DNA of 64,000 nucleotides from Antarctobacter heliothermus (GTDB lineage Bacteria; Pseudomonadota; Alphaproteobacteria; Rhodobacterales; Rhodobacteraceae). Position 1 is the first letter of the stretch, and the number at the start of each line of letters is the position of its first letter. Both the position numbers and the translations under genes were made by a program. This document shows positions 3,907 to 46,961 of the stretch, one piece after another. The notes below the pieces were generated by a model. The model saw only the letters and a program-made list of their open reading frames with translations. It was not told the origin of the DNA and did no database searches. The stretch lies in the NCBI RefSeq assembly GCF_900188425.1, contig NZ_FZON01000022.1:1-64000 (forward strand), given 5' to 3'.

Positions 3907-5373
3907 ATGAGCCGTTTTCGCCAATCGCTTGCTTCCCGGATATTCATCGCCATCGCCGCGACCGCCGTGTTGACCATTGCGATCATGGCGCTGCAGGTGG
4001 CGCTGTCGATGCGTGACGGGTTCGCACAGTACTTGTTGCGGGGGGAGTTGACGCGGTTCGACGATCTTGAACGGGCGTTGGTGCTGGCCCATGAACCGGG
4101 CGCACCGGGGTGGCCAGAACTCGCCAGCCACCCGAAGGTCTGGAACGATTTCGTGCGTGCGCATTTCCAGCCACTCGGGTCCGATGGCTTTGTGCGACCC
4201 GGCGCGCCGCCTGGGCGGCCGTTCCCGCCGCCGGACCGCCCGCCGCCGGGGGCCCCTGCAGGCGCGGACAATCAGATGATCGGGGAGCGGCTGATGCTTT
4301 TGGGACCGGACGGCAGACGCCTTGCCGGAGCGGAGGATCAATCCGGCTTGTTCGAGCGGCGCGCGATATGTTCCGACGACGACTGCACCGGCGACAGCCT
4401 GTTGGGTTTCATCGGGCTGAACGCGCCTCTGTACTCCGAGAACGCCAGCGATGCTTTTTTTCTACGCCGCCAATATGTGTCACTTGCGCTTTCTGCCTTC
4501 ATCGCGGTTCTGGTCTCTGCGGCGGCAGCCTTCTTTGTCGCGCGGCAGATCCTGATCCCGATCCGTCAGTTGGATCTGGGGGCCAAGACCATGGCGTCAG
4601 GCGATTACACCGCCCGCATCGCGCAAGACCGAAAGGACGAGCTGGGCCAGTTGATCGGCCACTACAACGCCCTTGCGGCCACACTTGAACGCACCGACAA
4701 GGCCGAGCGGGAATGGATTTCCAACACCAGCCACGAATTGCAGACGCCGCTGGCCACACTGCGCGCGCAGATCGAGGCGGTGCAGGATGGCATTCGCCAA
4801 CCGGATGCACAGACCCTGGCCGGGATGCATTCCGCGATGATGCGTCTGTCGCGGCTGGTGCAGGACATCAAAACCCTGTCGCATTCCCGCGAAGGCGGGC
4901 TGATGACCGCTTTTGACGCCGAAGACCTGAGCAAGATCGTCCGTGAGGCCATAGAAACAGCGCAGCCGCAGCTTGAGGCGAAACAGATCAGCCTTGATCT
5001 CGCCTTGCCCGACGCGTTGCCCTTCGCATGTGATCAGCTGCGGATTCGTCAGGTCATTGATAACCTGCTTCAGAATGCGATCCGCTATACCAATACTCCG
5101 GGCCGCGTGCGGTTACGTTTGCATGACGCCTCCGATCGGGTCCAATTGATCATGGACGATACCCCGCCAGCACCGCCACAGGACGATCTTCCAAGGCTTT
5201 TCGACCGCTTCTATCGCGCCGAAAGTTCGCGGTCGCGCGCTTATGGCGGTTCTGGACTGGGCCTGTCTGTCTGCAAGGCGATCATCGCAGGTCATGGTGG
5301 AAAAATCACCGCTGAACCCTCCGATTTGGGCGGTCTTCGCATTATCATAAGCCTGCCAAGGGAAACGACATGA
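3907..5373 (+). CDS. BaeS-like sensor histidine kinase
   Basis: 488-residue membrane histidine kinase. Transmembrane helix about residues 12-33, a periplasmic sensor region about 34-190, a second helix about 191-213, a HAMP linker, then HisKA with the phospho-acceptor H276 in SNTSHELQTPL. The ATPase domain has N-box DNLLQNAIRYT, LFDRFYR and GGSGLGLS. The periplasmic part has a proline-rich stretch (about 98-117) and a close Cys pair, C155 and C160, which could bind metal or sense redox state; that is inference. The start MSRFRQSL was chosen over an upstream in-frame ATG at 3850 because it directly precedes the first membrane helix. The stop overlaps the response-regulator start by 4 bp, so the pair is translationally coupled. 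Confidence 0.93.
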   Translation: MSRFRQSLASRIFIAIAATAVLTIAIMALQVALSMRDGFAQYLLRGELTRFDDLERALVLAHEPGAPGWPELASHPKVWNDFVRAHFQPLGSDGFVRPGAPPGRPFPPPDRPPPGAPAGADNQMIGERLMLLGPDGRRLAGAEDQSGLFERRAICSDDDCTGDSLLGFIGLNAPLYSENASDAFFLRRQYVSLALSAFIAVLVSAAAAFFVARQILIPIRQLDLGAKTMASGDYTARIAQDRKDELGQLIGHYNALAATLERTDKAEREWISNTSHELQTPLATLRAQIEAVQDGIRQPDAQTLAGMHSAMMRLSRLVQDIKTLSHSREGGLMTAFDAEDLSKIVREAIETAQPQLEAKQISLDLALPDALPFACDQLRIRQVIDNLLQNAIRYTNTPGRVRLRLHDASDRVQLIMDDTPPAPPQDDLPRLFDRFYRAESSRSRAYGGSGLGLSVCKAIIAGHGGKITAEPSDLGGLRIIISLPRETT

Positions 5374-16689: not shown

Positions 16690-17313
16690 CTATTGGCGGA
16701 CATAGGTCACATAAAGCCCCTTCACCATACGGTGTTCTTGTAGGCGGTCGCCAAGGTTGAAACCTTCCCGACGGACCGGTGCCTGGAAAATATCCAGGCC
16801 GCGATCCAGCACGATCTTCCAGCCGGTGTCGGTCACGATATCCCGTGCATGTGCCGTTCCGTTGGTGTCGAAGGTCCAGGTGAAATCGACACCCGAGCCG
16901 ATGCAGGCCTCGGTGATGCTTTCGAGTAGCTCGCGTTGTTTCTGTGTCAATCGGCACCGAATGTTGACCCCCTGAAGGCGCCCAAAAATGACCCCCTCTG
17001 GTGCGACGGAAGCTGGCCCGATGCGGTGTAGCCTCCACACAGCGCAGCCGCGTCGGGCCAGCGGCGTTCCTGTTACTCGCGGGTCTTGAAGCGCCAGATG
17101 ATCTGTCGGAGTGTCAAAGAGTGCGGTCCCTATGAAATTGTCGGGCACACCATTTGCCAATGTTACATTGGCCGTCGGAGCAATGGACAGGGCCTGCAAA
17201 AATAGGCGCAGTGTCCGCGTTTCGCGTGGACGCAGCATCAACCTGTGCGGTCCGAGAGAGAGCGGGAGACGGTATCGGTAGGTTCTGGTGTGAACGATGA
17301 CGAGACAGGCCAA
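16690..17313 (-). pseudogene. Chimeric open frame: transglutaminase N-terminus / IS-like junction / MIT_C-like tail
   Basis: An uninterrupted 207-codon frame made of three unrelated parts. Residues 1 to about 75 ([20 protein letters not shown], then [10 protein letters not shown]) are the N-terminal domain of a bacterial transglutaminase-like protein. Residues about 76-120 lie over transposon-end-like DNA. Residues about 123-207 ([50 protein letters not shown]) resemble the MIT_C domain that closes some bacterial ATPase or phospholipase-like proteins. It is best read as the fusion of two truncated genes by an insertion; whether it is expressed is unknown. Confidence 0.6.
16961..16997. mobile_element. 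Possible IS-end remnant (IS21-like repeats)
   Basis: Two spaced copies of a TGACCCCCT motif (TGTTGACCCCCT at 16962-16973 and AATGACCCCCT at 16987-16997) look like the multiple terminal repeats at IS21-family ends. No transposase gene is present. The motif sits exactly at the join between the two gene fragments of the chimeric frame. Confidence 0.35.
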
Positions 17314-17344: not shown

Positions 17345-17554
17345 TCAGCGGCGGCGGGATGCGCCCGGACTGACAGATACGGCGTTTCGCCAAGCGTTCA
17401 ATCCCTTGCAGCGCCGGCAAATCCGCTCTCCGAAACCTTCGCTCCAGAAGAGGGTATGGCATCGCAGGCATTGGCGTTCCTGCGGAACGTCTCCCATAGC
17501 CTTTGCCGTCGCGGTGTCTCGCATGGCTCCTTCGGCGATATCCTGGTTGGCCAT
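17345..17554 (-). CDS. Small zinc-ribbon-like protein
   Basis: 69 residues. Two Cys pairs, C-L-R-C and C-R-R-C, are separated by about 15 residues ([21 protein letters not shown]), a compact zinc-ribbon arrangement with a basic C-terminal tail. The start ATG overlaps the stop of the upstream gene (TGATG), so the two are translationally coupled. Short zinc-ribbon proteins of this type are common in Rhodobacterales; whether this one binds nucleic acid or protein is unknown. Confidence 0.6.
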
Positions 17555-18087
17555 CACATCTGACCCTCTACGTACCGGCTGCGCGAAGGCGAATGTGGTT
17601 CCGGTCGCGTAGGCATGCCTTCGTTCTCCGCGGCCCGTATTGACTCTTCGTCCCGCGCTCCTTGGATGGCCGTCTTCGACGCTGGAAAATTCGAGTAGGA
17701 ATCAGGCGTCCCGCTCTCCGAGTAGAGATGTCGCAGATGCCCCTCGGACACCCCGTCCGCCCTCATCACCAGACGCACCATCGGATCAGCCAGCATATCC
17801 TCCAGAAAAAAATCGGCCAACACCCCGCCTGCCAGCTTGTCCCGCGCGCGTACACGGTCCAGGTCGGCAAGGGAAACGGTCAGAGTCCGCGCAAGCCCGG
17901 GATGCGACATCCGGGGATGAAGCTTCACCAGGACGGAGGCTTTCCAAGCTGCGGGATGCTGTTGATCAGGGGGTGAAACCAACTCCGTTTCGATCTCGTA
18001 CTCCCCTGCCGGAAGCATCTCCGCAAAGCCTGGAACGGTGAATGGTCGGGCAAAAACCGCAACGGTCTTGGTCGTCAGATCTTCCAT
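17554..18087 (-). CDS. Conserved hypothetical protein, paralogue of the gene at 20529-20846
   Basis: 177 residues, cytoplasmic. The N-terminal 35 residues (VAVFARPFTVPGFAEMLPAGEY) align with the start of the protein at 20529-20846 (VTFSNPFTLSGYTDDLPAGDY), giving a shared motif F-x-x-PF-[TV]-x-x-G-[FY]-x-x-x-LPAG-[DE]-Y-E. The C-terminal half is different, mostly helical and hydrophilic. The start at 18087 is preceded by a GAGAGGATC ribosome site. No known domain was recognised; the shared head suggests a beta-rich module. Confidence 0.65.
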   Translation of the reverse strand: MEDLTTKTVAVFARPFTVPGFAEMLPAGEYEIETELVSPPDQQHPAAWKASVLVKLHPRMSHPGLARTLTVSLADLDRVRARDKLAGGVLADFFLEDMLADPMVRLVMRADGVSEGHLRHLYSESGTPDSYSNFPASKTAIQGARDEESIRAAENEGMPTRPEPHSPSRSRYVEGQM

Positions 18088-18166
18088 CGGCGTGATCCTC
18101 TCCTGTGTTGCTGCGGGTCGTGCGCGCGCCCCGGTTCGAATATGGGCCGCGTGGCCAGTGCGCGTT

Positions 18167-18265
18167 TCAAGGCATCTTCGTTTTAGGCGCCGTACACTTG
18201 CCATCGGCTTTGGGCTCTTCCGCTTTCACGTTGGACTTTGCGGTTTCAGCGGGCTTCCGCGCCAT
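18167..18265 (-). CDS. Possible small lysine-rich peptide
   Basis: A 32-codon frame (MARKPAETAKSNVKAEEPKA then DGKCTAPKTKMP) with lysine/alanine/glutamate composition unlike random high-GC frames. Upstream the frame extends through GLTARAAAA to a TAG. There is no convincing ribosome site, so it is listed only as a weak candidate or the tail of a broken gene. Confidence 0.25.
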   Translation of the reverse strand: MARKPAETAKSNVKAEEPKADGKCTAPKTKMP

Positions 18266-18438: not shown

Positions 18439-19245
18439 TTAGGCCAATTCATCCGTCCAGACCTTGAATTCCGTCAACGTGTTTTTGCCGAATGTCTGGG
18501 TCAGAGGCACATCGGCAGCATCGCGGCCGCGCGCGATCAGAATTCTCGCAAACCTCGGCTTGTTGTTGCGCGGGTCGAACATGTGCCATTCACCAGCAAG
18601 GAACACCTCCATCCATGCAGCGAAATCCCCCGGCGGATGAGGGAGCGGTTCCCCGATGTCGCTCAGATATCCGGTGCAGTAGCGGGCCGGAATGTTCATG
18701 CAGCGACACAGGGCGATGGCGAGATGGGCAAAGTCGCGGCAAACACCCTGCCGCTCGGCCAAGGTCTGTGATGCCGTGCGCGTCGCTTTCGCCTCCATGT
18801 AGTCAAAGCGGACATGTCCGTGTACGAAATCGCAGATCGCCTGAACGCGGGACCAACCAGGCTCCGTGGTCTCAAAAAGACTCCAGGCTTCCTCTGAAAG
18901 AAGGTCGGTATCGCAATACCGGCTCCCCTGCAGGAACACGAGGGTCTCGTATGGCAGGTCCTGAACCGCGTGCTGCTGCGCGTCGGGAAAGACGGGATCG
19001 GGCTGGCCCGTATCGCGAAAGATACCATCCGTCGACAGGCAGAAGTCGCCCGCCGGAGCCAGGAGGCGCGTACACCAGTTGCCGAAGCCGTCCCGGTAGC
19101 TTTCGAGCGGTACGCTCGGCGACGTGACGAGGTAATCGGCGCGTTCCAGATCGCCAAAGCGCGAGTAGTGGACGTTCAGCAGCGCGATCATTGGCGTCGG
19201 CTGCCGAAAGCTGTATCGCAGACGACACCCTATGCTGACCCGCAT
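18439..19245 (-). CDS. Transglutaminase-like protein with atypical catalytic site
   Basis: 268 residues. N-terminal beta-domain (MRVSIGCRLRYSFRQPTPMI) followed by a transglutaminase/protease core: candidate nucleophile C169 in QGVCRDFAHLAIALCRCMNIPAR, and D224 in WHMFDPRNN. The position that normally holds the catalytic His (before AW in HAWxEV) reads FAAWMEVF here, so the His appears to be Ala. Activity is therefore doubtful, or another His (H221) substitutes. The start at 19245 was chosen because it begins the domain; 19272 is an alternative. The N-terminal domain of a second, broken copy lies at 17089-17313. Confidence 0.85.
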   Translation of the reverse strand: MRVSIGCRLRYSFRQPTPMIALLNVHYSRFGDLERADYLVTSPSVPLESYRDGFGNWCTRLLAPAGDFCLSTDGIFRDTGQPDPVFPDAQQHAVQDLPYETLVFLQGSRYCDTDLLSEEAWSLFETTEPGWSRVQAICDFVHGHVRFDYMEAKATRTASQTLAERQGVCRDFAHLAIALCRCMNIPARYCTGYLSDIGEPLPHPPGDFAAWMEVFLAGEWHMFDPRNNKPRFARILIARGRDAADVPLTQTFGKNTLTEFKVWTDELA

Positions 19246-19279: not shown

Positions 19280-20176
19280 TCACCGTCCAAGAATGCACAC
19301 CCCGTTGGATAGCTGGAAGCCTCGATTGCAGCTCCACCGGTTGCCGGATCGGTCGAGATAGGCGTTCTCCGGCAGATCAATGGCGACGCAGGCGCCGCTC
19401 AACGGCTCGTACCCTCGCTCGCAGCTCCAACCTGGTCCATAGGATGCCTGGGCGAGAAACGCGTTTGCGGGCACGACGATGGCGTCGCATCGGTCGTCGA
19501 TCTTGACAAAGCCTCTCTCGCACGCCCAGGCAGCGCCATAGGCTGCGTTGGTCAGATATGCGTTCGCTGGCACGGCAATCGGCATGCATGTCCCTGCAAC
19601 GGCCGCATAGCCGCGATCACAAGTCCATCCCGTTCCCGATCTGTCTTCTGTCAGATAGGCGTACTCGGGCAGAACGATTGGCACACATGCATCGCGCTCT
19701 TGCCGGAAACCGCGTTCGCATTGCCAGTCATAGCCGAAAGCCCGGAGAAAGGCGTTGGCGGGCACCGGGATGGGATTGCAGAAAGTCCGGTTCACTTCCT
19801 CATACCCACGGTCGCACTCCCACCCCGCCCCGTAGGAGTGCCCGGTCGGATAGGCATGCTCGGGGATATCGAGCGCCAGACATTCGGCACGCTCCACCCG
19901 GTAACCGGAATCACAGACCCAGCCGCCACCGTAGCCGCGCGGCTGAGCGTTCTCGGGCATCGGGCCGGTGCCATCCTGCGCAAAGGCGGGGAAGGCCAGA
20001 GCCGCGACCACACCGGCCGCGAAAGCTAGTTTCGAGAACAGTCGTGCCAGCAGATGTCCGGTCGGGTACTTGCCGTCGACACGTCCTTCAGGATGGTTCG
20101 TCTCCGGCGGCGATGCCGGCAGAGTTTGCCCGTGTACCACGGCCAGTTCCGCTCTGAGTGACGTGGCATGAGACAT
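19280..20176 (-). CDS. Secreted protein with seven Cys/Trp tandem repeats
   Basis: About 298 residues. After an N-terminal segment of some 45 residues comes a signal-peptide-like helix (LARLFSKLAFAAGVVAALAF, cleavage near AFAQ). The rest is seven consecutive repeats of 31-35 residues with the pattern P-x-N-A-[YF]-L-x(5,7)-G-x-x-W-x-C-[DE]-R-G-[YF]-x6-C-x-x-I. Each repeat has two Cys that can form a local disulfide, so the mature protein is probably a rod of small hairpins in the periplasm or outside the cell. The start is uncertain: ATG at 20176, or TTG at 20191 overlapping the upstream stop. Function is not known. It lies in one minus-strand row with the transglutaminase-like gene. Confidence 0.8.
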   Translation of the reverse strand: MSHATSLRAELAVVHGQTLPASPPETNHPEGRVDGKYPTGHLLARLFSKLAFAAGVVAALAFPAFAQDGTGPMPENAQPRGYGGGWVCDSGYRVERAECLALDIPEHAYPTGHSYGAGWECDRGYEEVNRTFCNPIPVPANAFLRAFGYDWQCERGFRQERDACVPIVLPEYAYLTEDRSGTGWTCDRGYAAVAGTCMPIAVPANAYLTNAAYGAAWACERGFVKIDDRCDAIVVPANAFLAQASYGPGWSCERGYEPLSGACVAIDLPENAYLDRSGNRWSCNRGFQLSNGVCILGR

Positions 20177-20187
20177 TATTTCATCGC

Positions 20188-20532
20188 TCAAAGCTCGAGG
20201 GCCGCGAGACAGGCCTGCGCAATATCACGGTCCGGGGCATCGGTTCCGGGAACCGTCGCCCAGCCTGCCGCCATGACAGCGTTGCGCCGCTGATATGTCG
20301 AGGCGGCCCGGATCGTTTCAAGCTTCTCCGCCCGTCCCGGGTCGGACCGCGCCATGTCGAGGCAGACCGGGACCATGGACGCCACGACATCGTTGCGGGA
20401 CATCGCCAACGCCCTGTCATTTGCGGTGCTACCAGTCACCCAGCCGCCCCACGAAAATCCGACGATGCCGACGACGACAGCGCCGATCACGGCACCATAG
20501 ATACCGGGTTTGAGCCATTCGGGAGTGTTCAT
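20188..20532 (-). CDS. Conserved membrane-anchored hypothetical protein
   Basis: 114 residues. One N-terminal membrane helix (GIYGAVIGAVVVGIVGFSWG) follows a short MNTPEWLKP head, then a soluble helical part with two Cys (VPVCLDMAR and AQACLAAL) and the signature TYQRRNAVMAAGWATVPG. I recognise this as a conserved alphaproteobacterial protein of unknown function. The start overlaps the upstream stop by 4 bp (ATGA), and its own stop overlaps the possible start of the repeat protein. Confidence 0.7.
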   Translation of the reverse strand: MNTPEWLKPGIYGAVIGAVVVGIVGFSWGGWVTGSTANDRALAMSRNDVVASMVPVCLDMARSDPGRAEKLETIRAASTYQRRNAVMAAGWATVPGTDAPDRDIAQACLAALEL

Positions 20533-20846
20533 GTACTATCCTCCTGCGGGGAAAGCGCCGCATCGCTGTGATCGTTCTTCTTTTCGGTCGCGACCCGATC
20601 ACGGATCAGGGCCTCTTTCAGGTCGTATTCAGAAATCGCCCGCAACTCGGAGCGTCCCGCATGCCCGCCCCTGCCGCGCACCGTCAGGTAGGTCGCCGTC
20701 CGTCTGTAAGCCTCGAAGCTCAGCCCCTGGAGAAGCTCCTCTTCGACGAGAAGTTCGTAGTCGCCCGCAGGCAGGTCGTCGGTGTATCCCGACAAGGTGA
20801 ACGGGTTCGAAAACGTTACCGTCGATCTGGTCGACCGCATGTTCAT
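20529..20846 (-). CDS. Conserved hypothetical protein (LPAGDYE head)
   Basis: 105 residues, cytoplasmic. It has the N-terminal module FSNPFTLSGYTDDLPAGDYE shared with the gene at 17554-18087, then a beta-like stretch (YRRTATYLTVRGRG) and a charged helical tail. The GGAG ribosome site lies 7 nt before ATG 20846. First gene of a minus-strand row (20846 to 19280), divergent from the gene at 21118. No function known. Confidence 0.65.
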   Translation of the reverse strand: MNMRSTRSTVTFSNPFTLSGYTDDLPAGDYELLVEEELLQGLSFEAYRRTATYLTVRGRGGHAGRSELRAISEYDLKEALIRDRVATEKKNDHSDAALSPQEDST

Positions 20847-21117
20847 TTCTGGTCTCCGCGATGTTGGCAGATCCGTCGCTCACCACTGTCGAAGACCCCT
20901 CGGATTCCGGGCCTGACGGGTCGAACGATTTCTTCTCTTGTACCTCGGGATCGTTTGGCTGGCGCTGACACATGTTAGTCCCGGGCACCAAACAGGTTGC
21001 GAATGCCCTGGGGACAGTCGCAGACACTGACCTGTGTAAGCGCGCCGGAACTGACCTGCGCGTAGCCTTGGGGAAACGGGGACGATTTGCGTTCCTGCAA
21101 CCAAGGAATGAATGACG

Positions 21118-21543
21118 ATGGCCGAAGGCAAAATTCTCAACCCCAACCCGCCCGAGTTCGAGCGATTTCTCTATGCGTCGGTCGGCGAGGACCGGAACGG
21201 ATATGTCGTGACGGTCCTCTCCACCCTCGCGCGGCTCGGCCTCGATCCATGGAAGGAAACCGCTGAACTTGTAGCGCTCGGACGCGACGGAGCGCGAGCG
21301 CGGTTGGGCACGCTGCTGGCACGATTTCGGGACGTTCCCACGCTCGCAAGCGATAACGGCAGGGTCGCACGAGACCTGAGCCAGTTGCTCCCCGAAGGCC
21401 AGGCGTCATTGGGTTTGAAGCGGGCTGTCACGTCGGTCGGCAACGGCCGCCTGGGCACTGGCAGCGCAATCTGGACAATACTGGCAATCATCTTCGTGCT
21501 GTTTCAGGTGTTGACGGCTGGCGGTTCGGGCTCAGGCGAATGA
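21118..21543 (+). CDS. Conserved hypothetical protein with C-terminal membrane helix
   Basis: 141 residues. The soluble N-terminal part (NPPEFERFLYASVGEDRNGY; LDPWKETAELVALGRDGARA) is followed by a single C-terminal hydrophobic helix (SAIWTILAIIFVLFQVLTAG), so probably a tail-anchored inner-membrane protein. The ribosome site AAGGA serves ATG at 21112 or 21118; 21118 has the better spacing. It overlaps the next gene by 4 bp. Not a family I can name beyond a recurrent alphaproteobacterial hypothetical. Confidence 0.65.
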   Translation: MAEGKILNPNPPEFERFLYASVGEDRNGYVVTVLSTLARLGLDPWKETAELVALGRDGARARLGTLLARFRDVPTLASDNGRVARDLSQLLPEGQASLGLKRAVTSVGNGRLGTGSAIWTILAIIFVLFQVLTAGGSGSGE

Positions 21544-21953
21544 CCGTTTCCACGAAGACCACAAAGACGCCGGATCATACGGCGCACAAGTCCGGAACCC
21601 TGTCGCCGCAGGAACAGAGTGTTCTCTGGGATATGGAGGAGCACTTCTGGACCAGCGGCGCGGACAATGTGCAGGCGACAACGGCAAGCAACGCCGTCAT
21701 GATCTTTCCGTATCCTCCCAGCATCCTGCAGGGCGATCATATCTGGAACCACCTGAAAAAGAGAACCGGCTGGCGGACCGCCATCATGGCCGAACGGCGG
21801 GTGACGCGCTGTCGTGACATCGCCATTCTCACCTATCGGGTCTCGGCCGAGAAACCCGACGTCCCGATCTACAAGGCAATCTGCGCCTCGACATATCTGT
21901 TCGATGAAGACAAATGGCTGCGGCTCGCCCACCAGCAAACGACGGTGGCGTGA
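21540..21953 (+). CDS. SnoaL/DUF4440-like (NTF2-fold) protein
   Basis: 137 residues, cytoplasmic. The pattern fits small NTF2-like domains: an N-terminal helix (LSPQEQSVLWDMEEHFW), a VMIFPYPPSILQGDHIW segment, then strands RVTRCRDIAILTYRVSA and ICASTYLFDEDKWLRLAHQQT. DUF4440-type domains bind small molecules or act as stress-related isomerase-like folds; no substrate is indicated. It is co-translated with the upstream gene (ATGA overlap). Confidence 0.7.
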   Translation: MTVSTKTTKTPDHTAHKSGTLSPQEQSVLWDMEEHFWTSGADNVQATTASNAVMIFPYPPSILQGDHIWNHLKKRTGWRTAIMAERRVTRCRDIAILTYRVSAEKPDVPIYKAICASTYLFDEDKWLRLAHQQTTVA

Positions 21954-22245
21954 CCTGCGCACGGTCACTGCATTTGCCGGGTCAGACGTCCGCGTGCCTT
22001 TTATCGTTCGACGCGCGGACCCCCTGATTGCCCTAGGCGCCGTCAATAATCCGCAGCAGCGCACGCCGAGGCTAACCTGCGTCAGTGCGGCGAGGCGCCG
22101 ACACGGGTAGTGAGAGATGCGCCCGCCGAACATTTGGCGGCGCAGTTTTCCGAGTACCCGAGAAGCGTGCGGGCGTGCCGATCCCCAAAAGGTCGGCATG
22201 TTGGCGCGCTTCTTGTTCTCGGAACGTCCATGAAAGGACAATCCA

Positions 22246-22434
22246 ATGACTCCCGAACAGAACAAGACTGCCGAGAAGATGACCTCCGTGAAGGCCACGT
22301 GGGACAAGGCGCCCGCTGGTCCGAAGAAGGATGCGGCGCTGAAGCATTACAAAGCCGCCGAAAAGGCGAACACGGCGAAGAACGACGCCGAGACCAACAA
22401 GGAACTCGATGCGGCGACCCACGCCCTCGCGTGA
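22246..22434 (+). CDS. Small helical charged protein
   Basis: 62 residues with 13 Lys and many Ala/Glu, predicted to be entirely alpha-helical (MTPEQNKTAEKMTSVKATW; DAALKHYKAAEKANTAKND). GAAAGG lies 10 nt before the ATG and a strong terminator follows 25 bp after the stop, so it is a well-defined single transcription unit. I recall similar short proteins in Rhizobiales and Rhodobacterales, of unknown role. The 291 bp upstream hold no other gene. Confidence 0.7.
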   Translation: MTPEQNKTAEKMTSVKATWDKAPAGPKKDAALKHYKAAEKANTAKNDAETNKELDAATHALA

Positions 22435-22459: not shown

Positions 22460-22495
22460 GGGCCGCCCTCCAGGTAATGGAGGGCGGCCCTTTCA
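22460..22495 (+). terminator. Rho-independent terminator
   Basis: Perfect 12-bp stem GGGCCGCCCTCC / GGAGGGCGGCCC (22460-22471 and 22479-22490) with a 7-nt loop, followed by TTTCATTTC. It ends the small-protein gene and abuts the stop codon of the convergent Crp/Fnr gene, so it may work on both strands. Confidence 0.85.
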
Positions 22496-23227
22496 TTTCA
22501 ACAGCGGCCCCGATTGGTCCAGATATGCCGGATCGAACTCGGCAAGTTCCACCAGACCGCCATAGTCGTGAAACGTCACATGTCCGTCCCGAAAGGTCAC
22601 CAGTCCACTCTCGCGAAGCTGCCGCAGAACGCGGTTCACATGGACCGCGCTCAACCCCAGCGTATCGGCGAGGTGATACTGCGTCAGCGGGCAGTCGAAC
22701 CCGTCCTTGCCGCCCATGCCGACCAGCGCAAGCCTCGATCCCAGCTCCAGCAGGAAATGCGCCATGCGGGCGTCCGCATCACGCCGCCCGATCCCGACGA
22801 GATGCTCCACGACCATCGCCTCGTCCCTTGACGCCGCCCAGAGTATGGCAGTCGCCAGGCGAGGGGTCTGGGCAAACGCCTCCAGCAGGTCGCTCGTCAG
22901 CACTTCGGCAGCCTCGATGTCCACGATGGGCTCAAAACTGTGGTCCGAGGTGCGCAGTAGAACGCTCCGCAACCCCAGGAAATCCCCTGGGATCTGGAAA
23001 TCCACTATCTGGCGCGTCCCGTCGGCCTGTAGCTTGTAGGAACAAACCCAACCCGCAGACAGAATATACGCAGCCCGCGCGGACTGGCCTTGATGTACCA
23101 TATCCCGCCCCCCAACGAAGGATCGGCGACGCTGGTGCAATCGTTCAAGCACAGCAAGCTCGACCTCCGACAGCGCGACAAAGGCCGAGAGCTTGCGCGT
23201 AAGGGGGCTGTGTTCAATGGATTTCAT
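22493..23227 (-). CDS. Crp/Fnr-family transcriptional regulator
   Basis: 244 residues. Cyclic-nucleotide-binding-like beta-roll (about 20-140; VHQGQSARAAYILSAGWVCSY, IPGDFLGLRS), dimer helix, then a C-terminal Crp-type winged helix (LTQYHLADTLGLSAVHVNRVLRQLRESGLV). No N-terminal Cys cluster is visible, so it is not an Fe-S FNR. The start at 23227 has GGAGG 6 nt upstream; the ATG at 23254 is not needed. It is divergent from the gene at 23378 and probably controls the small-protein module around it; that is inference. Confidence 0.9.
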   Translation of the reverse strand: MKSIEHSPLTRKLSAFVALSEVELAVLERLHQRRRSFVGGRDMVHQGQSARAAYILSAGWVCSYKLQADGTRQIVDFQIPGDFLGLRSVLLRTSDHSFEPIVDIEAAEVLTSDLLEAFAQTPRLATAILWAASRDEAMVVEHLVGIGRRDADARMAHFLLELGSRLALVGMGGKDGFDCPLTQYHLADTLGLSAVHVNRVLRQLRESGLVTFRDGHVTFHDYGGLVELAEFDPAYLDQSGPLLK

Positions 23228-23377
23228 GGGGCCTCCTGGCGCGTGGTGACCCAAAAGCGGAAATCGGCCCGGACACTGCTCTGGATCAGTCCAGCATAGC
23301 GAAGTTCCTGCGAAAAGTACGGATCAATTTGAACCTCAACTTCCCACAGGTGATGATGCACTGGAAGGAATACGGGC

Positions 23378-23727: not shown

Positions 23728-23754
23728 TTGGCACTCCGGTATGGCGAGTGCCAA
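23728..23754 (+). promoter_or_regulatory. CIRCE element (HrcA operator) of groESL
   Basis: TTGGCACTC-N9-GAGTGCCAA, a perfect inverted repeat that departs from the CIRCE consensus (TTAGCACTC-N9-GAGTGCTAA) only at the third base of each arm. It ends 54 bp before the groES start, so HrcA repression of this operon is expected. No hrcA gene is in the window. Confidence 0.93.
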
Positions 23755-23808
23755 AGCACCTCCGACCATCGCCATGCTCCCTTGGAAACACGAAGAAGGA
23801 GCACTTAC

Positions 23809-24096
23809 GTGTCGTTCACTCCACTCCACGACCGGGTTCTCGTCCGCCGCATCGAAGGCGACGCGAAGACCTCAGGCGGGCTTATCATTCCCGACACCGC
23901 AAAAGAGAAGCCGCAGGAAGGTGAGATCGTCGCGGTCGGCGCCGGCGCCAAGGACGAGGATGGCGAGCGCATCGCCATGGATGTCAAGGCGGGCGACCGG
24001 ATCCTGTTCGGAAAATGGTCAGGGACCGAAATCAAACTCGGTGGCGAAAATCTCATGATCATGAAGGAGAGCGACATTCTCGGCGTCATGGCCTGA
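23809..24096 (+). CDS. groES: Co-chaperonin GroES
   Basis: 95 residues, full-length Hsp10. Typical [22 protein letters not shown] head, mobile loop ([18 protein letters not shown]) and end [17 protein letters not shown]. The start is GTG at 23809 with AGAAGGAG at 23794-23801, 7 nt upstream. First gene of the operon with groEL 43 bp downstream; under CIRCE control. Confidence 0.98.
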
Positions 24097-24139: not shown

Positions 24140-25777
24140 ATGTCCGCCAAAGACGTTAGATTCAGTACAGATGCCCGCGACCGCATGCTGAAAGGCATCA
24201 ACACGCTGGCCAACGCCGTGAAGATCACCCTTGGACCCAAGGGCCGGAACGTCATCATCGACAAATCCTGGGGCGCGCCGCGCATCACCAAGGACGGTGT
24301 GACCGTCGCCGCGGAAATCGAGCTGTCCGACCATTTCGAGAACATGGGCGCGCAGATGGTCAAGCAGGTCGCGCAGCGCACCAATGAAGAGGCGGGCGAC
24401 GGCACCACGACCGCAACCGTCCTCGCCCAAGCGATTGTCCGGGAGGGGATGAAGTCGGTCGCGGCCGGAATGAACCCGATGGATCTCAAGCGCGGGATCG
24501 ACAGGGCCGTCGCTGCGGTTGTGGCCGAGATCAAGACCCTGTCCCGCCCCGTCGGCGACAGCGACGAGATCGCCAAGGTCGGCGCCATTTCAGCCAACGG
24601 AGAGGTCGCGATCGGTCGTCAGATCGCGGATGCGATGGCCAAGGTTGGCAATGAAGGCGTGATCACCGTCGAGGAAAACAAGGGACTGGAGACCGAAACC
24701 GACGTGGTCGAGGGCATGCAGTTCGACCGTGGCTATCTGAGCCCCTACTTCATCACGAACGCTCAGAAGATGGTCGTCGAGCTGCATGACTGCGTCATCC
24801 TGCTTCACGAAAAGAAGCTGTCGTCCCTTGCTTCCATGGTGCCGCTGCTGGAGGCAGTCATTCAGGCAGACAAGCAACTGCTGATCGTGGCCGAGGACAT
24901 CGAGGGCGAGGCTCTGGCGACGCTGGTCGTCAACAAGCTGCGCGGCGGACTGAAGGTCGCGGCCGTCAAGGCGCCCGGCTTTGGCGACCGCCGCAAGGCG
25001 ATGCTGGAAGACATTGCCGTGCTCACGGGCGGACAGGTGATTTCCGTAGAAATGGGCACCAAGCTGGAGAATGTCACGATGGACATGCTCGGCACGGCGA
25101 AGAAGGTCGCGATCACCAAGGATGACACGACGATCATCGACGGAGCCGGCGACAAGGGCGCGATCGCGGCGCGCGTCACCCAGATCCGGGCGCAGATCGA
25201 GGAGACCACGTCGGACTACGACAAGGAGAAGCTGCAGGAACGCCTGGCCAAGCTCGCCGGTGGCATTGCCGTGATCCGGGTCGGCGGGGCCACCGAGATT
25301 GAGGTGAAGGAGCGCAAGGACCGCGTGGACGATGCGCTGAACGCCACCCGCGCTGCGGTTCAGGAAGGTGTCGTGCCCGGTGGCGGCGTGGCCCTGGTTC
25401 ATGCTGGCAAGGTGCTGGCGACGCTGAAGGGTGACAACAGCGATCAAGATGCCGGCATCAAGATCGTCCGCCGCGCGATCCAGGCGCCGCTGCGCCAGAT
25501 TGCCGGAAATGCCGGCGTCGACGGATCGGTCGTTGTTGGCAAGGTGATCGAGAACGACAGCCCGACCTTCGGTTTCGACGCGCAGACAGAGGAATACGTC
25601 GACATGCTGAAGGCCGGCGTCATCGATCCGACGAAAGTCGTCCGGATCGCGCTCGAAAACGCCGCGTCCATTGCCGGGCTATTGATCACGACCGAAGCGA
25701 TGGTCGCGCAAAAGCCCGAGAAGGCCGGTGCCGGCAGCGAAATGTCCGACATGGGTGGAATGGGCGGAATGATGTGA
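24140..25777 (+). CDS. groEL: Chaperonin GroEL
   Basis: 545 residues, full-length Hsp60. ATP-binding segment [11 protein letters not shown] and [16 protein letters not shown], apical [20 protein letters not shown], and the terminal GGMGGMM tail. Works with GroES in protein folding in the cytoplasm. Alphaproteobacteria often hold several groESL copies; this one lies on the repABC replicon next to small-protein genes, so it may be an auxiliary copy. Confidence 0.98.
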
Positions 25778-43591: not shown

Positions 43592-44653
43592 TCATACCAG
43601 ATTGTCAGCTGACAATTCCGGCCTCTCCAGTGATTTCACCATCCCCCGAAGGTTCAACTGTCCTTGAACCGCTCGTTTGCTCAGACCGCGTAGATAGGCC
43701 CCGGGTTTGCGGATGTCAGAGAGCTTTTCAAGGATGCACAGCACCGCCACACTGGCCCCGTGCGAACCGATCCTGTGCCGCGCATCCTCAAAGGTGGTGC
43801 GATCGATCCCCATCATAGGATAGAGCATCTGTGCCACCCGGATCAGACCCGACCAGTCCTTGGGAGCCTCGGGAAAGAAACTCTTGTATTCCTTGCACGT
43901 CCCCAACACCTGATCCAGCGCAACCGCTTCCTGATTTCGCGTGTCTGGCTCTTTACTTACAGATTCAGCTTTATTTGTACTCTGTATGTGCCGCTCATTT
44001 TCGCTGTCGATGGCGCTCATTTCTTCTGCCGGTGCATGGATTTTCCGAGCGTTGTCCACGTGGTTTTCCAGCGGTTCCAGCACCGCGCGGAGGGTTTCGG
44101 CGTCGACCTTGCGGCGCAGTATCCGGCGGCTGTCCTCGATCAGAGGGTGATCCACTGGCAGCAAGTCGCCTTCGATCAGGCGCATCCGGGTCGCTGCGAT
44201 CCGGGCGCGGAGGGCGTCGATTTCCTGCTGCCGGAGATGCTCGTCGCTTGCAGCCTTGAACACCTCGTCAGCCAATCGGACCAGCGGGCTGAGGTCAAAG
44301 CCAAAGGCCAATCCGCCAAAACGTGCAAAGCGTTTGCGGTTGGCGCTGTCCTGACGGCTGACAATGCCACATCTGACCAGCGTCGCCAGATGCCGGCGCA
44401 GGGTGCTTTCGGGCATGCCGTTCAGGCGTTGCGACAACGTCCGGTTGGAGGGAAACACCACCGCCACACCAGGCACATTTGGCAGGGCGCGTTCGGGGTA
44501 AAAGGTCAGCAGGGCGCGCAGCACGGTCAGGGTCCTGTGGTTCAGACCGAAACTGTTTGCGGCACGGGTCAACGTGTCGAGCAGCACCCACTTGTCATGC
44601 GATGCGCAAGGCTCGACCGGCTGCCCGAATGGGATTCGGGACATTTCTGTCAT
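43592..44653 (-). CDS. repC: Replication initiator RepC of a repABC replicon
   Basis: 353 residues from ATG 44653 (a TTG at 44674 and ATG at 44644 are alternatives). N-terminal helix-turn-helix part (GLNHRTLTVLRALLTFYPER, VVFPSNRTLSQRLNGMPESTLRRHLATL), middle charged linker, C-terminal helical domain ending GAYLRGLSKRAVQGQLNLRG. RepC binds the origin inside its own gene in this plasmid class. The last codons (ELSADNL) overlap parS site 2. Its synthesis is limited by the antisense ctRNA upstream. Confidence 0.95.
   Translation of the reverse strand: MTEMSRIPFGQPVEPCASHDKWVLLDTLTRAANSFGLNHRTLTVLRALLTFYPERALPNVPGVAVVFPSNRTLSQRLNGMPESTLRRHLATLVRCGIVSRQDSANRKRFARFGGLAFGFDLSPLVRLADEVFKAASDEHLRQQEIDALRARIAATRMRLIEGDLLPVDHPLIEDSRRILRRKVDAETLRAVLEPLENHVDNARKIHAPAEEMSAIDSENERHIQSTNKAESVSKEPDTRNQEAVALDQVLGTCKEYKSFFPEAPKDWSGLIRVAQMLYPMMGIDRTTFEDARHRIGSHGASVAVLCILEKLSDIRKPGAYLRGLSKRAVQGQLNLRGMVKSLERPELSADNLV
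43601..43616. promoter_or_regulatory. parS-like partition site 2, inside the 3' end of repC
   Basis: ATTGTCAGCTGACAAT, a perfect 16-bp palindrome, 55 bp from site 1 (start to start). It differs from site 1 only at the last base and overlaps the codons for the final residues of RepC. Confidence 0.85.
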
Positions 44654-44738
44654 GATAATCTTGGCGATAGACAATAATTTACCCGCCCACCGAATCGGTA
44701 GCGTTGACAGGGTCAGTGCTGAGGGGCTATCTCAAGAG

Positions 44739-44788
44739 TGCGAGAAATGAGAGGCCTTCCGGGATCCGTCCTGGGGGGCTTTTCTTTT
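44739..44788 (+). ncRNA. Antisense ctRNA of the repABC cassette
   Basis: In the repB-repC gap, on the strand opposite to repABC. A -35 TTGACA (44704-44709) and a weak -10 (TATCTC, 44728-44733, spacer 18) predict a start near 44740. A 13-bp stem with wobble pairs, AGGCCTTCCGGGA (44752-44764) with TCCTGGGGGGCTT (44769-44781) and loop TCCG, is followed by TTCTTTT. This matches the short incompatibility RNA that represses repC in this plasmid class. Confidence 0.7.
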
Positions 44789-44829
44789 GCCTGTCGTCGT
44801 CCTCCTTTGTCTGCTCGTTATCGTTGCCT

Positions 44830-45777
44830 TCAGTCTTCCGACCGCTCTTTTTGCCAGCGGTCGTGAAGCTCTTTCACCAGATCCTCTGCGTGGGCATCCA
44901 GCCACAGTGCAAAGCCGCCGGTGGTGGACAGGGTCAGCCCCTTGTCCGATCGTTTGACCTGCGCCAGCGACACGCCGCCGGGGCCGGTGATCTTGCGGGC
45001 GGGCAGGGGCCGCGCCTTGGCCTGTTTCGGGGTCTTGGCGCCCGTGGCCCATGCCAGAACCTGTTCAAACCGCGTATCCGATCCATCGACATAGATCAGC
45101 GTTTCCATCCGCGCCTCGACCCGGTCGCGCAGGGCCTCGTCCTGTAACGCCTCGGCGAGCGTGAGCCAGCGTTCGCGCCCGATGCCCGGGGCCGACCCGA
45201 TCTGGCGCAGGAAATCCACGTCAAAGGCGCGGCCCACCTTCAGCATCCGGCTGACCATGGGCAGGTCGATCGACAGGGCGTCCGCCACGGTCTGGCGGTC
45301 ATAATCCAACGCATCCAGTTGCGCCGCAAAACTGGCCTTTTCGATAAAGGACAGGTCCTGACGCGCGGTGTTTTCCTGCCCCTGCGCCAGCACCAATGCC
45401 TTGTCGTCCAGATGGCGCACCATGGCCTTGACCGTCTGGCCCAATTCTCGCAGGGCAATCACCCGGCGGCGACCATAGACGATGTCAAAATGCCCCGGCT
45501 GATCGGCGCGGGGGCGGACAAGGACGGGCACCTGTTGTCCGTAGACACGCAAGGAGTCGCGCAGGGCGGTGTCGGCGCTGTCATCGTTGCCCAGACGGTC
45601 CGCCACGCCCGCGTCATGGATCAACGCCGGGTCCAGATCCTGAACCGCGTTTTCCTGCAGCTTGGACAATGAGCTTTGCAGCGCGCCGACGGTGCCGCGT
45701 GGCATCAGCCGGTCTGCCGCGGTGCGCCGCGCCGGGGCGGCGGTTGCATCGGTTGACAGGATTCCCTTGCGTGCCAT
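44830..45777 (-). CDS. repB: Partition protein RepB (ParB family)
   Basis: 315 residues. ParB-like N-terminus (LRDSLRVYGQQVPVLVRPRAD, YGRRRVIALRELGQTVKAMVR), an ENTARQDLSFIEKASFAAQL segment and a helix-turn-helix (TVADALSIDLPMVSRMLKVG). Its start ATG shares one base with the RepA stop (TGATG), which sets the start at 45777. Predicted to bind the two parS sites beyond repC. Confidence 0.95.
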   Translation of the reverse strand: MARKGILSTDATAAPARRTAADRLMPRGTVGALQSSLSKLQENAVQDLDPALIHDAGVADRLGNDDSADTALRDSLRVYGQQVPVLVRPRADQPGHFDIVYGRRRVIALRELGQTVKAMVRHLDDKALVLAQGQENTARQDLSFIEKASFAAQLDALDYDRQTVADALSIDLPMVSRMLKVGRAFDVDFLRQIGSAPGIGRERWLTLAEALQDEALRDRVEARMETLIYVDGSDTRFEQVLAWATGAKTPKQAKARPLPARKITGPGGVSLAQVKRSDKGLTLSTTGGFALWLDAHAEDLVKELHDRWQKERSED

Positions 45778-46961
45778 CAGCGCCTCCATGCCTTGTGCAT
45801 CAGCGTTTCGATCTCATCGTTCACAGCATTCAGTGAATCGACCGCACGGTCATAGGTGTTGCGGTGAAAGGCGCTGCGCTCGACCTCGTAGATGGTTTGC
45901 TGGGTCAGGCCGGCGTCGGAAATCGCGGTGGATTTCAGCATCGCATTGGTCATGACCTCATCGCCGAACAACTGCCGCAGGAAGGCGACAACCTGTTGTT
46001 GCGGCCCGTCCGAAGGTTCGTAGCGGTTGATCAGAAAGCGCAGGAAATCGAACTCCATCCGCGCGCCCGCGCCAGACACCACGTCGAGCAAGTCGGCGCT
46101 CATCTGCAGGAACTGCGACATCGAGGCGACGTCCAGCATATTGGGCACCACGGTGATCAGCACGCCAGTCGAGGCGCAGAGCGCCGACATGGTCAGGTAG
46201 CCGAGCTGCGGCGGACAGTCGAAGATGATGACGTCGTAATCGGCCTCGACCTCCTGCAGGGCGGCGGCCATGCGGGCGTAAAAGGGGGGCTGGATATTGT
46301 TGCGCAGGGCAGTGGGGGTCTCGTGCTCGAACTCTTGCAGGATCAATCCGCCGGGGGCGAGGTCCAGCCCGGTGAAATAGGTTTCCTGAATGATCTCACG
46401 GAAGGGCAGGGGGTCTTCATAGCGGATCGCGTCGTAGATCGACCCGGAATGCAGAAAGTCCACCTCTGGCTGATAGCCAAAGAGCGTGGTCAGGCTGGCC
46501 TGCGGGTCGATGTCCACGGCGAGCACGCGATAGCCCTTGAGCGCGAGGCGCTGTGCGGTGTGGATCGACGAGGTGGTCTTGCCCGAGCCGCCCTTGAAAT
46601 TGAGGAAAGACAGCACCTGCACCTTGTCGTCACCGCGCCGCCCCTTGAGATAGGCGCCGGGAGATTTTGCGTTTTCTTCCAACACCTTGCGGATGGTCGT
46701 CAGATCGGCTGCGGAATAATGCCTGCGGCCGCCCGGGGTGGTGTGTACGTCCGGTATACGATCCTCGAAGTGCAGCTTGCGCAGAAAGCTGGAAGAGATG
46801 CCCAGCAGATCGGCAGCCTCGCCCGGCGAAAACAGGCGCATCTGTTTGCGCGCGTCGGGCGCAAAGCTCTTGAGCATGTGGCTTTCGAGCGCGCCCGCAA
46901 GGTTTTGCGCGTTTTCCCGGATGCGGGTATTGATGTGAATAGGGTCGGTCGCCTCTGTCAC
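45777..46961 (-). CDS. repA: Partition ATPase RepA (ParA family)
   Basis: 394 residues. N-terminal winged-helix-like part (FSPGEAADLLGISSSFLRKL), deviant Walker A KGGSGKTT (123-130), Walker B IIFDCPPQLG. Together with RepB it segregates the replicon and autoregulates the repABC promoter. First gene of the cassette. Confidence 0.96.
   Translation of the reverse strand: MTEATDPIHINTRIRENAQNLAGALESHMLKSFAPDARKQMRLFSPGEAADLLGISSSFLRKLHFEDRIPDVHTTPGGRRHYSAADLTTIRKVLEENAKSPGAYLKGRRGDDKVQVLSFLNFKGGSGKTTSSIHTAQRLALKGYRVLAVDIDPQASLTTLFGYQPEVDFLHSGSIYDAIRYEDPLPFREIIQETYFTGLDLAPGGLILQEFEHETPTALRNNIQPPFYARMAAALQEVEADYDVIIFDCPPQLGYLTMSALCASTGVLITVVPNMLDVASMSQFLQMSADLLDVVSGAGARMEFDFLRFLINRYEPSDGPQQQVVAFLRQLFGDEVMTNAMLKSTAISDAGLTQQTIYEVERSAFHRNTYDRAVDSLNAVNDEIETLMHKAWRR

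Follow-up and report, generated by a model that had tools for sequence, protein, structure and literature searches.

EGF modules carry six cysteines joined in three disulfides, and CCP (sushi) modules four cysteines in about 60 residues. Regulators of the Fnr/Crp type act at operators reading TTGAT-N4-ATCAA, and the recognition helix of Fnr carries E-x2-SR. In enterobacteria, mobile stress cassettes are exemplified by the transmissible locus of stress tolerance. The locus described here resembles each of these in part. It lies in the first 64,000 nucleotides of contig NZ_FZON01000022.1 of Antarctobacter heliothermus (the window, meaning the whole stretch that was analysed) and includes a gene for a repeat protein, P0001 (Table 1). 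We judge the chances even that P0001 is a periplasmic scaffold or binding rod belonging to a mobile stress cassette under Crp/Fnr control. Among titles in the open-licence literature, none describing the repeat or the cassette was found.

Table 1. Features of the repeat operon and the surrounding cassette (positions in the window)
Feature	Position	Strand	Remarks
TG2 position, Bact_transglu_N and MIT_C-like domain	16690..17313	minus	
Small Cys-containing cassette protein	17345..17557	minus	
Gene X, conserved cassette gene	17554..18204	minus	partly resembles gene A
TG1, transglutaminase-like fold	18439..19245	minus	without usual catalytic His, without signal peptide
Repeat protein P0001	19280..20191	minus	303 aa; TTG start overlapping gene B stop (TTGA)
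Array of seven degenerate EGF-like repeats (residues 79-299)	19295..19957	minus	14 Cys
N-terminal leader and predicted Sec signal peptide (residues 1-71)	19979..20191	minus	from sequence, alignment and dN/dS
Gene B, small protein, N-terminal membrane segment (by eye)	20188..20532	minus	coupled to P0001
Gene A, small conserved protein, first operon gene	20529..20846	minus	overlaps B by ATGA
Operator-like palindrome CTAACATGTGTCAG	20965..20978	minus	132 nt before gene A start
Second palindrome copy CTTACACAGGTCAG	21027..21040	minus	between A and divergent 21112-21543
Cassette gene h_21112	21112..21543	plus	divergent from A
Cassette gene h_21540	21540..21953	plus	
Third palindrome copy CTAACCTGCGTCAG	22072..22085	plus	before small gene 22246-22434
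Small cassette gene s_22246	22246..22434	plus	
Crp/Fnr-family regulator (cNMP_binding and HTH_Crp_2)	22493..23254	minus	candidate palindrome reader
GroES	23728..24096	plus	true start probably inside ORF; annotated relative
GroEL	24140..25777	plus	annotated relative

P0001 is the third gene of an operon, and it has a loosely constrained N-terminal extension ahead of its signal peptide. The TTGA and ATGA overlaps indicate translational coupling of A, B and the repeat gene within one operon. An open reading frame at 19280-20176 had been put forward in an earlier note on this DNA; the frame is confirmed, but its true extent is slightly longer (19280-20191). The start codon is TTG in eight and ATG in two of the ten relatives checked. 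The mature part of the protein is under purifying selection, with dN/dS of about 0.15-0.23 in six pairwise comparisons. Residues 1-45 are nearly unconstrained (about 0.55-1.35, six pairwise comparisons); the TTGA start overlap with gene B is kept even though these residues evolve almost freely.

The signal peptide, as read by eye, is typical (..KLAFAAGVVAALAFPAFAQ/DGTG). Its end (PxxAQ) is nearly invariant among relatives in alignment A1. Both features bear out the earlier claim of an exported protein, and P0001 would probably reach the periplasm through this signal peptide.

P0001 contains seven W-x-C units, at residues 91, 124, 156, 189, 222, 255 and 286, with spacings of 33, 32, 33, 33, 33 and 31 residues. 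It has exactly 14 cysteines, all of them inside the units and two per repeat. Seven copies of the hairpin motif W-x-C-x2-G-[YF]-x(5-8)-C are present, whereas 20,000 shuffles of the mature protein averaged 0.0013 copies and never gave more than 1. Motif count, spacing and shuffles thus agree with the earlier description of seven periodic repeats with two cysteines each. The consensus segments, described as fixed, are more relaxed than that. GxxWxC[DE]RG[YF] is found in strict form in five of the seven repeats, the first reading CDSGY and the last CNRGF, while PxNA[YF]L is strict in four and deviates in the other three. In a repeat-by-repeat comparison with one relative (L045), all seven best matches fall on the diagonal, so that each repeat keeps its positional identity. 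This identity is not kept in comparison with L048 or the Rhizobium and Methylocystis relatives, in each of which the pattern picked up only six repeats.

Across the family, the first cysteine is present in 482 of 482 W-anchored repeats and the second in 481, a count from which the internally stopped member L044 and duplicates were left out and in which repeats lacking both Trp and Cys are missed, as the pattern needs one or the other. The first and last cysteines of the array are both conserved in the alignment. This fits pairing inside each repeat, since pairing between neighbouring repeats would strand exactly these two. We therefore infer that the disulfides probably form within each repeat. 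Retention of both cysteines in almost every repeat, a cysteine content of 6% and the stress-related context could also be read as signs of a redox buffer, with the fourteen cysteines acting as a disulfide reservoir in oxidative stress. However, a thiol store would require less than the fixed spacing and the conservation seen at the Trp, Pro-x-Asn-Ala and Gly-Tyr positions, and a buffering role is quite improbable.

Searches of Pfam, NCBIfam and PDB sequences with P0001 returned nothing above cut-off. A known domain model explaining the repeat had been named in the earlier note as evidence against its proposal, and one such model, PF12946 (EGF_MSP1_1), accepts part of the family. Seven of 11 members scanned singly pass its cut-off of 27 bits, at 27.1-41.2 bits (Methylocystis 41.2, Rhizobium 39.9, Shewanella 35.1, Vibrio 33.2, L105 30.0, L051 27.6 and Ensifer 27.1), but P0001, at 18.1 bits, stays below it, as do L049, L045 and L002; these whole-protein scores add up several repeats that each match weakly. 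In alignment A2 every one of the 16 members has a match to EGF_MSP1_1, mostly a weak one, with some below and some above the cut-off. Across 61 genomes the Pfam model gave no matches, and the control genomes were likewise without a match. The repeats add an unnamed, widespread bacterial family that curated models miss in the Rhodobacterales clade.

The best PDB sequence match of the family profile is MSP1-19 of Plasmodium knowlesi (1n1i, E 0.006), and the aligned MSP1-19 segment likewise reads W-x-C. In EGF numbering, we take the Trp of the repeat to occupy the position of the fourth cysteine and the two remaining cysteines to be the fifth and sixth. A cysteine stands at the Trp position in one repeat of the paralogue L002 and in the first repeat of the Vibrio relative, and both fit such a swap. 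The repeat shares with EGF and MSP1-19 the hairpin W/C-x-C-x2-G-[FY]-x(5-8)-C, with a P-x-N-A segment ahead of it. It differs in having two cysteines per 31-33 residues rather than six, a Trp at the fourth EGF cysteine, a long tandem array and a bacterial host. By sequence, it appears to be a degenerate EGF-like module, related to or resembling EGF, in which only the last cysteine pair is left; the unit is so short that homology and convergence look alike. It illustrates how small a part of an EGF module may suffice for a folded unit.

AlphaFold2 modelled mature P0001 with a pLDDT of 85.2 and a pTM of 0.53, with four short strands per repeat; two repeats alone gave 85.3 and 0.62. The structure prediction called for in the earlier note thus yields confident modules (pLDDT 85) while leaving the overall shape uncertain (pTM 0.53), and the whole-chain model does not establish a rigid rod. 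The exported, disulfide-rich repeat scaffold envisaged there agrees with seven such modules and with the near-universal pair of cysteines in the 482 repeats. Structural comparison with Foldseek and VIA-align listed EGF, CCP and TNFR arrays and MSP1-19, all of them weak matches. The best Z was 3.7-3.8, MSP1-19 entries reached 2.0-3.0 and CCP matches 2.0-2.6, and none of the P0001 models gave a match of Z >= 5. For the two-repeat model the top Foldseek match was again MSP1-19 (E 0.10, weak). Absence from these match lists was not taken as a reason to reject any family. Like CCP/sushi and TNFR ectodomain arrays (Z 2-4), P0001 is predicted to be a string of small disulfide beta modules, but its repeats have two cysteines in 31-33 residues, unlike the four of CCP modules.

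These features suggest a possible architecture. P0001 would consist of seven small beta modules in series, each of them a hairpin unit of reduced EGF-like type held together by a single disulfide and a buried Trp. Such a chain, which may be rod-shaped, could act in the cell envelope as a spacer or binding scaffold that resists denaturation and proteases. The nearest weak matches in structure and sequence, EGF, CCP and TNFR ectodomain arrays and MSP1-19, might instead point to a surface or extracellular adhesin or matrix-binding rod, comparable to the tandem EGF-like or CCP arrays of animals and parasites. Such a role is unlikely, as no lipobox, anchor or outer-membrane export signal was seen by eye in P0001, and a Shewanella relative has its repeats beside a peptidoglycan-binding domain. 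A periplasmic scaffold is the preferred reading of the array. The Shewanella protein (L058, 4975-6420), which is encoded on a plasmid, has a membrane segment (by eye) and a PG_binding_1 domain followed by five short repeats at its C-terminus. Its gene adjoins Hsp70-like and Tn7-like genes.

A further possibility is that P0001 inhibits or adapts envelope proteases by presenting its disulfide modules serially. Weak TIL-like matches occur in four of 16 family members, and hflKC, a C-terminal processing peptidase (Rhizobium) or a trypsin-like peptidase (Methylocystis) is found nearby in some loci. However, chance low scores to short cysteine-rich models are to be expected, the proteases differ by lineage and none was seen in the window's own cassette. 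We regard protease inhibition as improbable and retain the scaffold or binding rod.

A tblastn search with P0001 found 50 loci in the species genome collection and 29 plasmid records, with no matches in phage records. A phage gene was rejected as a reading on these grounds, with a single locus (L105) in the viral collection. The relative at this locus (3956-4861) has an additional C-terminal domain besides its roughly six repeats, and is followed by a thermonuclease-like gene (by eye). A search of genomes with a repeat profile had also been proposed; a profile of 16 members located the gene in 10 of 61 relatives, 19 of 385 class genomes and 13 of 398 phylum genomes, sets that overlap and of which the latter two are drawn samples. 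The distribution is patchy even within the genus, where the source genome and three of five congeners have a match, one of the congener matches being partial. Nearly all Rhodobacterales relatives share the spacing of 33, 32, 33, 33, 33 and 31 residues, the exceptions being L035, in which one Trp is lost, and L044, which has an internal stop. Elsewhere there are six repeats (Hyphomonas), nine (an Acidobacteriota MAG), about four (a Vibrio plasmid) or five shorter repeats (the Shewanella plasmid relative). The repeat number therefore varies between lineages and is fixed within the Rhodobacterales. The source genome has a paralogue of the repeat gene (44%) on contig C27 (L109, 1-5423); DUF1611 and alanine/ornithine racemase-like genes come next, and the surroundings contain transposase-like fragments. 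A third match in this genome (L003), located in a group of sulfur-oxidation-like genes, was discounted as a chance match.

The genomic context of the repeat gene is that of a sporadic, often plasmid-borne cassette with groESL, a Crp/Fnr regulator, transglutaminase-like genes and sometimes hflKC. In 85 sequences (84 loci and the window), homologues were counted for B (59), A (56), TG1 (45), Crp (37), GroEL (27), DUF1611 (14), racemase (12) and HflK (9), a count that takes in weak matches, some duplicates and many loci cut by contig ends. Two arrangements recur. In the first the repeat gene is followed by TG1, X, Zn and TG2, and in the second by DUF1611 and the racemase (contig C27 of the source genome, Ruegeria, Aliiroseovarius and Phaeobacter). 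A repABC module (RepC, RepB, RepA) lies at 43592-46961 of the window, so that the contig is itself a plasmid or chromid, or else has one integrated. Further features of the contig include a tRNA-Ser (GCT) at 259-348, followed by a DUF6880 gene at 535-2085. In four of 20 distant loci, two of them from one genus, the repeat gene has a DEAD-box helicase gene as its co-oriented neighbour, and in a fifth a helicase with a cold-shock domain lies in the vicinity. An Lhr-type helicase in L087 was dropped from this count. In Methylocystis there are cold-shock genes near the repeat gene. These neighbours suggest a role in stress for the cassette and for P0001. Like the transmissible locus of stress tolerance, the cassette is an accessory, often plasmid-borne proteostasis gene set. 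It differs in its composition (groESL, hflKC, transglutaminase-like genes, the repeat protein and its own Crp/Fnr regulator) and in its occurrence in Alphaproteobacteria.

TG1 is the best conserved neighbour, with 77-94% identity, and its homologues occur in 38 of 47 contig loci (L004-L048, L052, L053). It lies 34 nt downstream of the repeat gene, in line with the co-orientation pointed out previously. It had been suggested on this basis that the transglutaminase-like protein cross-links or processes P0001 at the surface. However, no signal peptide was seen by eye in TG1, which starts directly with the fold, and Ala takes the place of the His in the usual HAWVEV motif (DFAAWMEV) in both the window and Roseovarius, where a second enzyme keeps HAWVEV. 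A single Lys is present in the mature rod, and 47 relatives (L044, with its internal stop, left out) have a median of one, with none in 12 of them. The combination expected of a transglutaminase substrate, with an active enzyme in the same compartment and Lys and Gln donors, was not found. In annotated loci linked to DUF1611 and the racemase, moreover, TG1 is not adjacent. Adjacency, co-orientation and conservation of TG1 notwithstanding, the missing signal peptide, the His-to-Ala change and the single Lys make cross-linking by TG1 very improbable, and the earlier suggestion is disfavoured. In the gene at the TG2 position, the catalytic core present in Roseovarius is missing.

A 14-bp palindrome, CTNAC-N4-GTCAG, was found by aligning upstream regions. 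It is conserved before the repeat operon and other cassette genes, and is new here. Exact copies in the window number three (20965, 21027 and 22072), all in the cassette; allowing one mismatch gives 18, where 9.2 would be expected. Upstream of gene A, conservation peaks at the copy at -132 (0.975 compared with a mean of 0.803), and 41 of 44 gene A upstream regions contain at least one palindrome. Of 118 sites in 53 sequences (52 loci and the window), 111 precede cassette genes, although the loci are related by descent and the shared palindromes are not independent. Two other promoter elements were rejected, namely a sigma-EcfG general-stress promoter, present in none of 44 upstream regions, and an Fnr-type TTG-N8-CAA site, found in eight of 44 gene A upstream regions compared with 15 of 210 background windows.

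In some genomes the sites are also concentrated at the cassette. The source genome has 21 distinct sites of the CTNAC type, and five of the form CTWAC-N4-GTCAG, three in the cassette and two on contig C97. Clustering at the repeat gene is seen in five carriers, comprising three of five sites in the source genome, three of five in G003, all three in G009, all four in G029 and two of three in G031. In the other five of the ten carriers among the 61 genomes (G002, G005, G006, G032 and G043) no palindrome was found near the repeat gene. Genomes without the gene mostly have zero to three scattered sites, and a few have more, up to eight.

A regulator is encoded nearby and a 5-4-5 palindrome occurs in the cassette promoters, as would be expected of Crp/Fnr control. 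The cassette thus seems to have its own control element, with its Crp/Fnr protein as the obvious candidate reader of the palindrome. The resemblance to Fnr/Crp operators lies in the 5-4-5 inverted repeat, the TGA core and the adjoining Crp/Fnr gene. The half site, CTNAC/GTCAG, is different, and the recognition helix of the cassette regulator reads HVNR rather than E-x2-SR. The regulator would probably turn on the repeat operon and its neighbours through these sites. We tentatively propose that single-disulfide EGF-like rods form the exported arm of a self-regulated mobile stress cassette of Alphaproteobacteria, in which the Crp/Fnr protein and its private operator might coordinate the rod with cytoplasmic chaperones, and the seven-module length might set a distance in the envelope. 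A concrete candidate operator and regulator make the function of this common Rhodobacterales mobile stress cassette directly testable.

Contig C97 of the source genome carries paralogues of h_21112, h_21540 and h_23378 and a Crp fragment. One of its two sites lies in a convergent region rather than a promoter. The region (L106, C97 3000-22500 in genome G000) is a second cassette fragment, and occurs there with an ATP-synthase-like operon.
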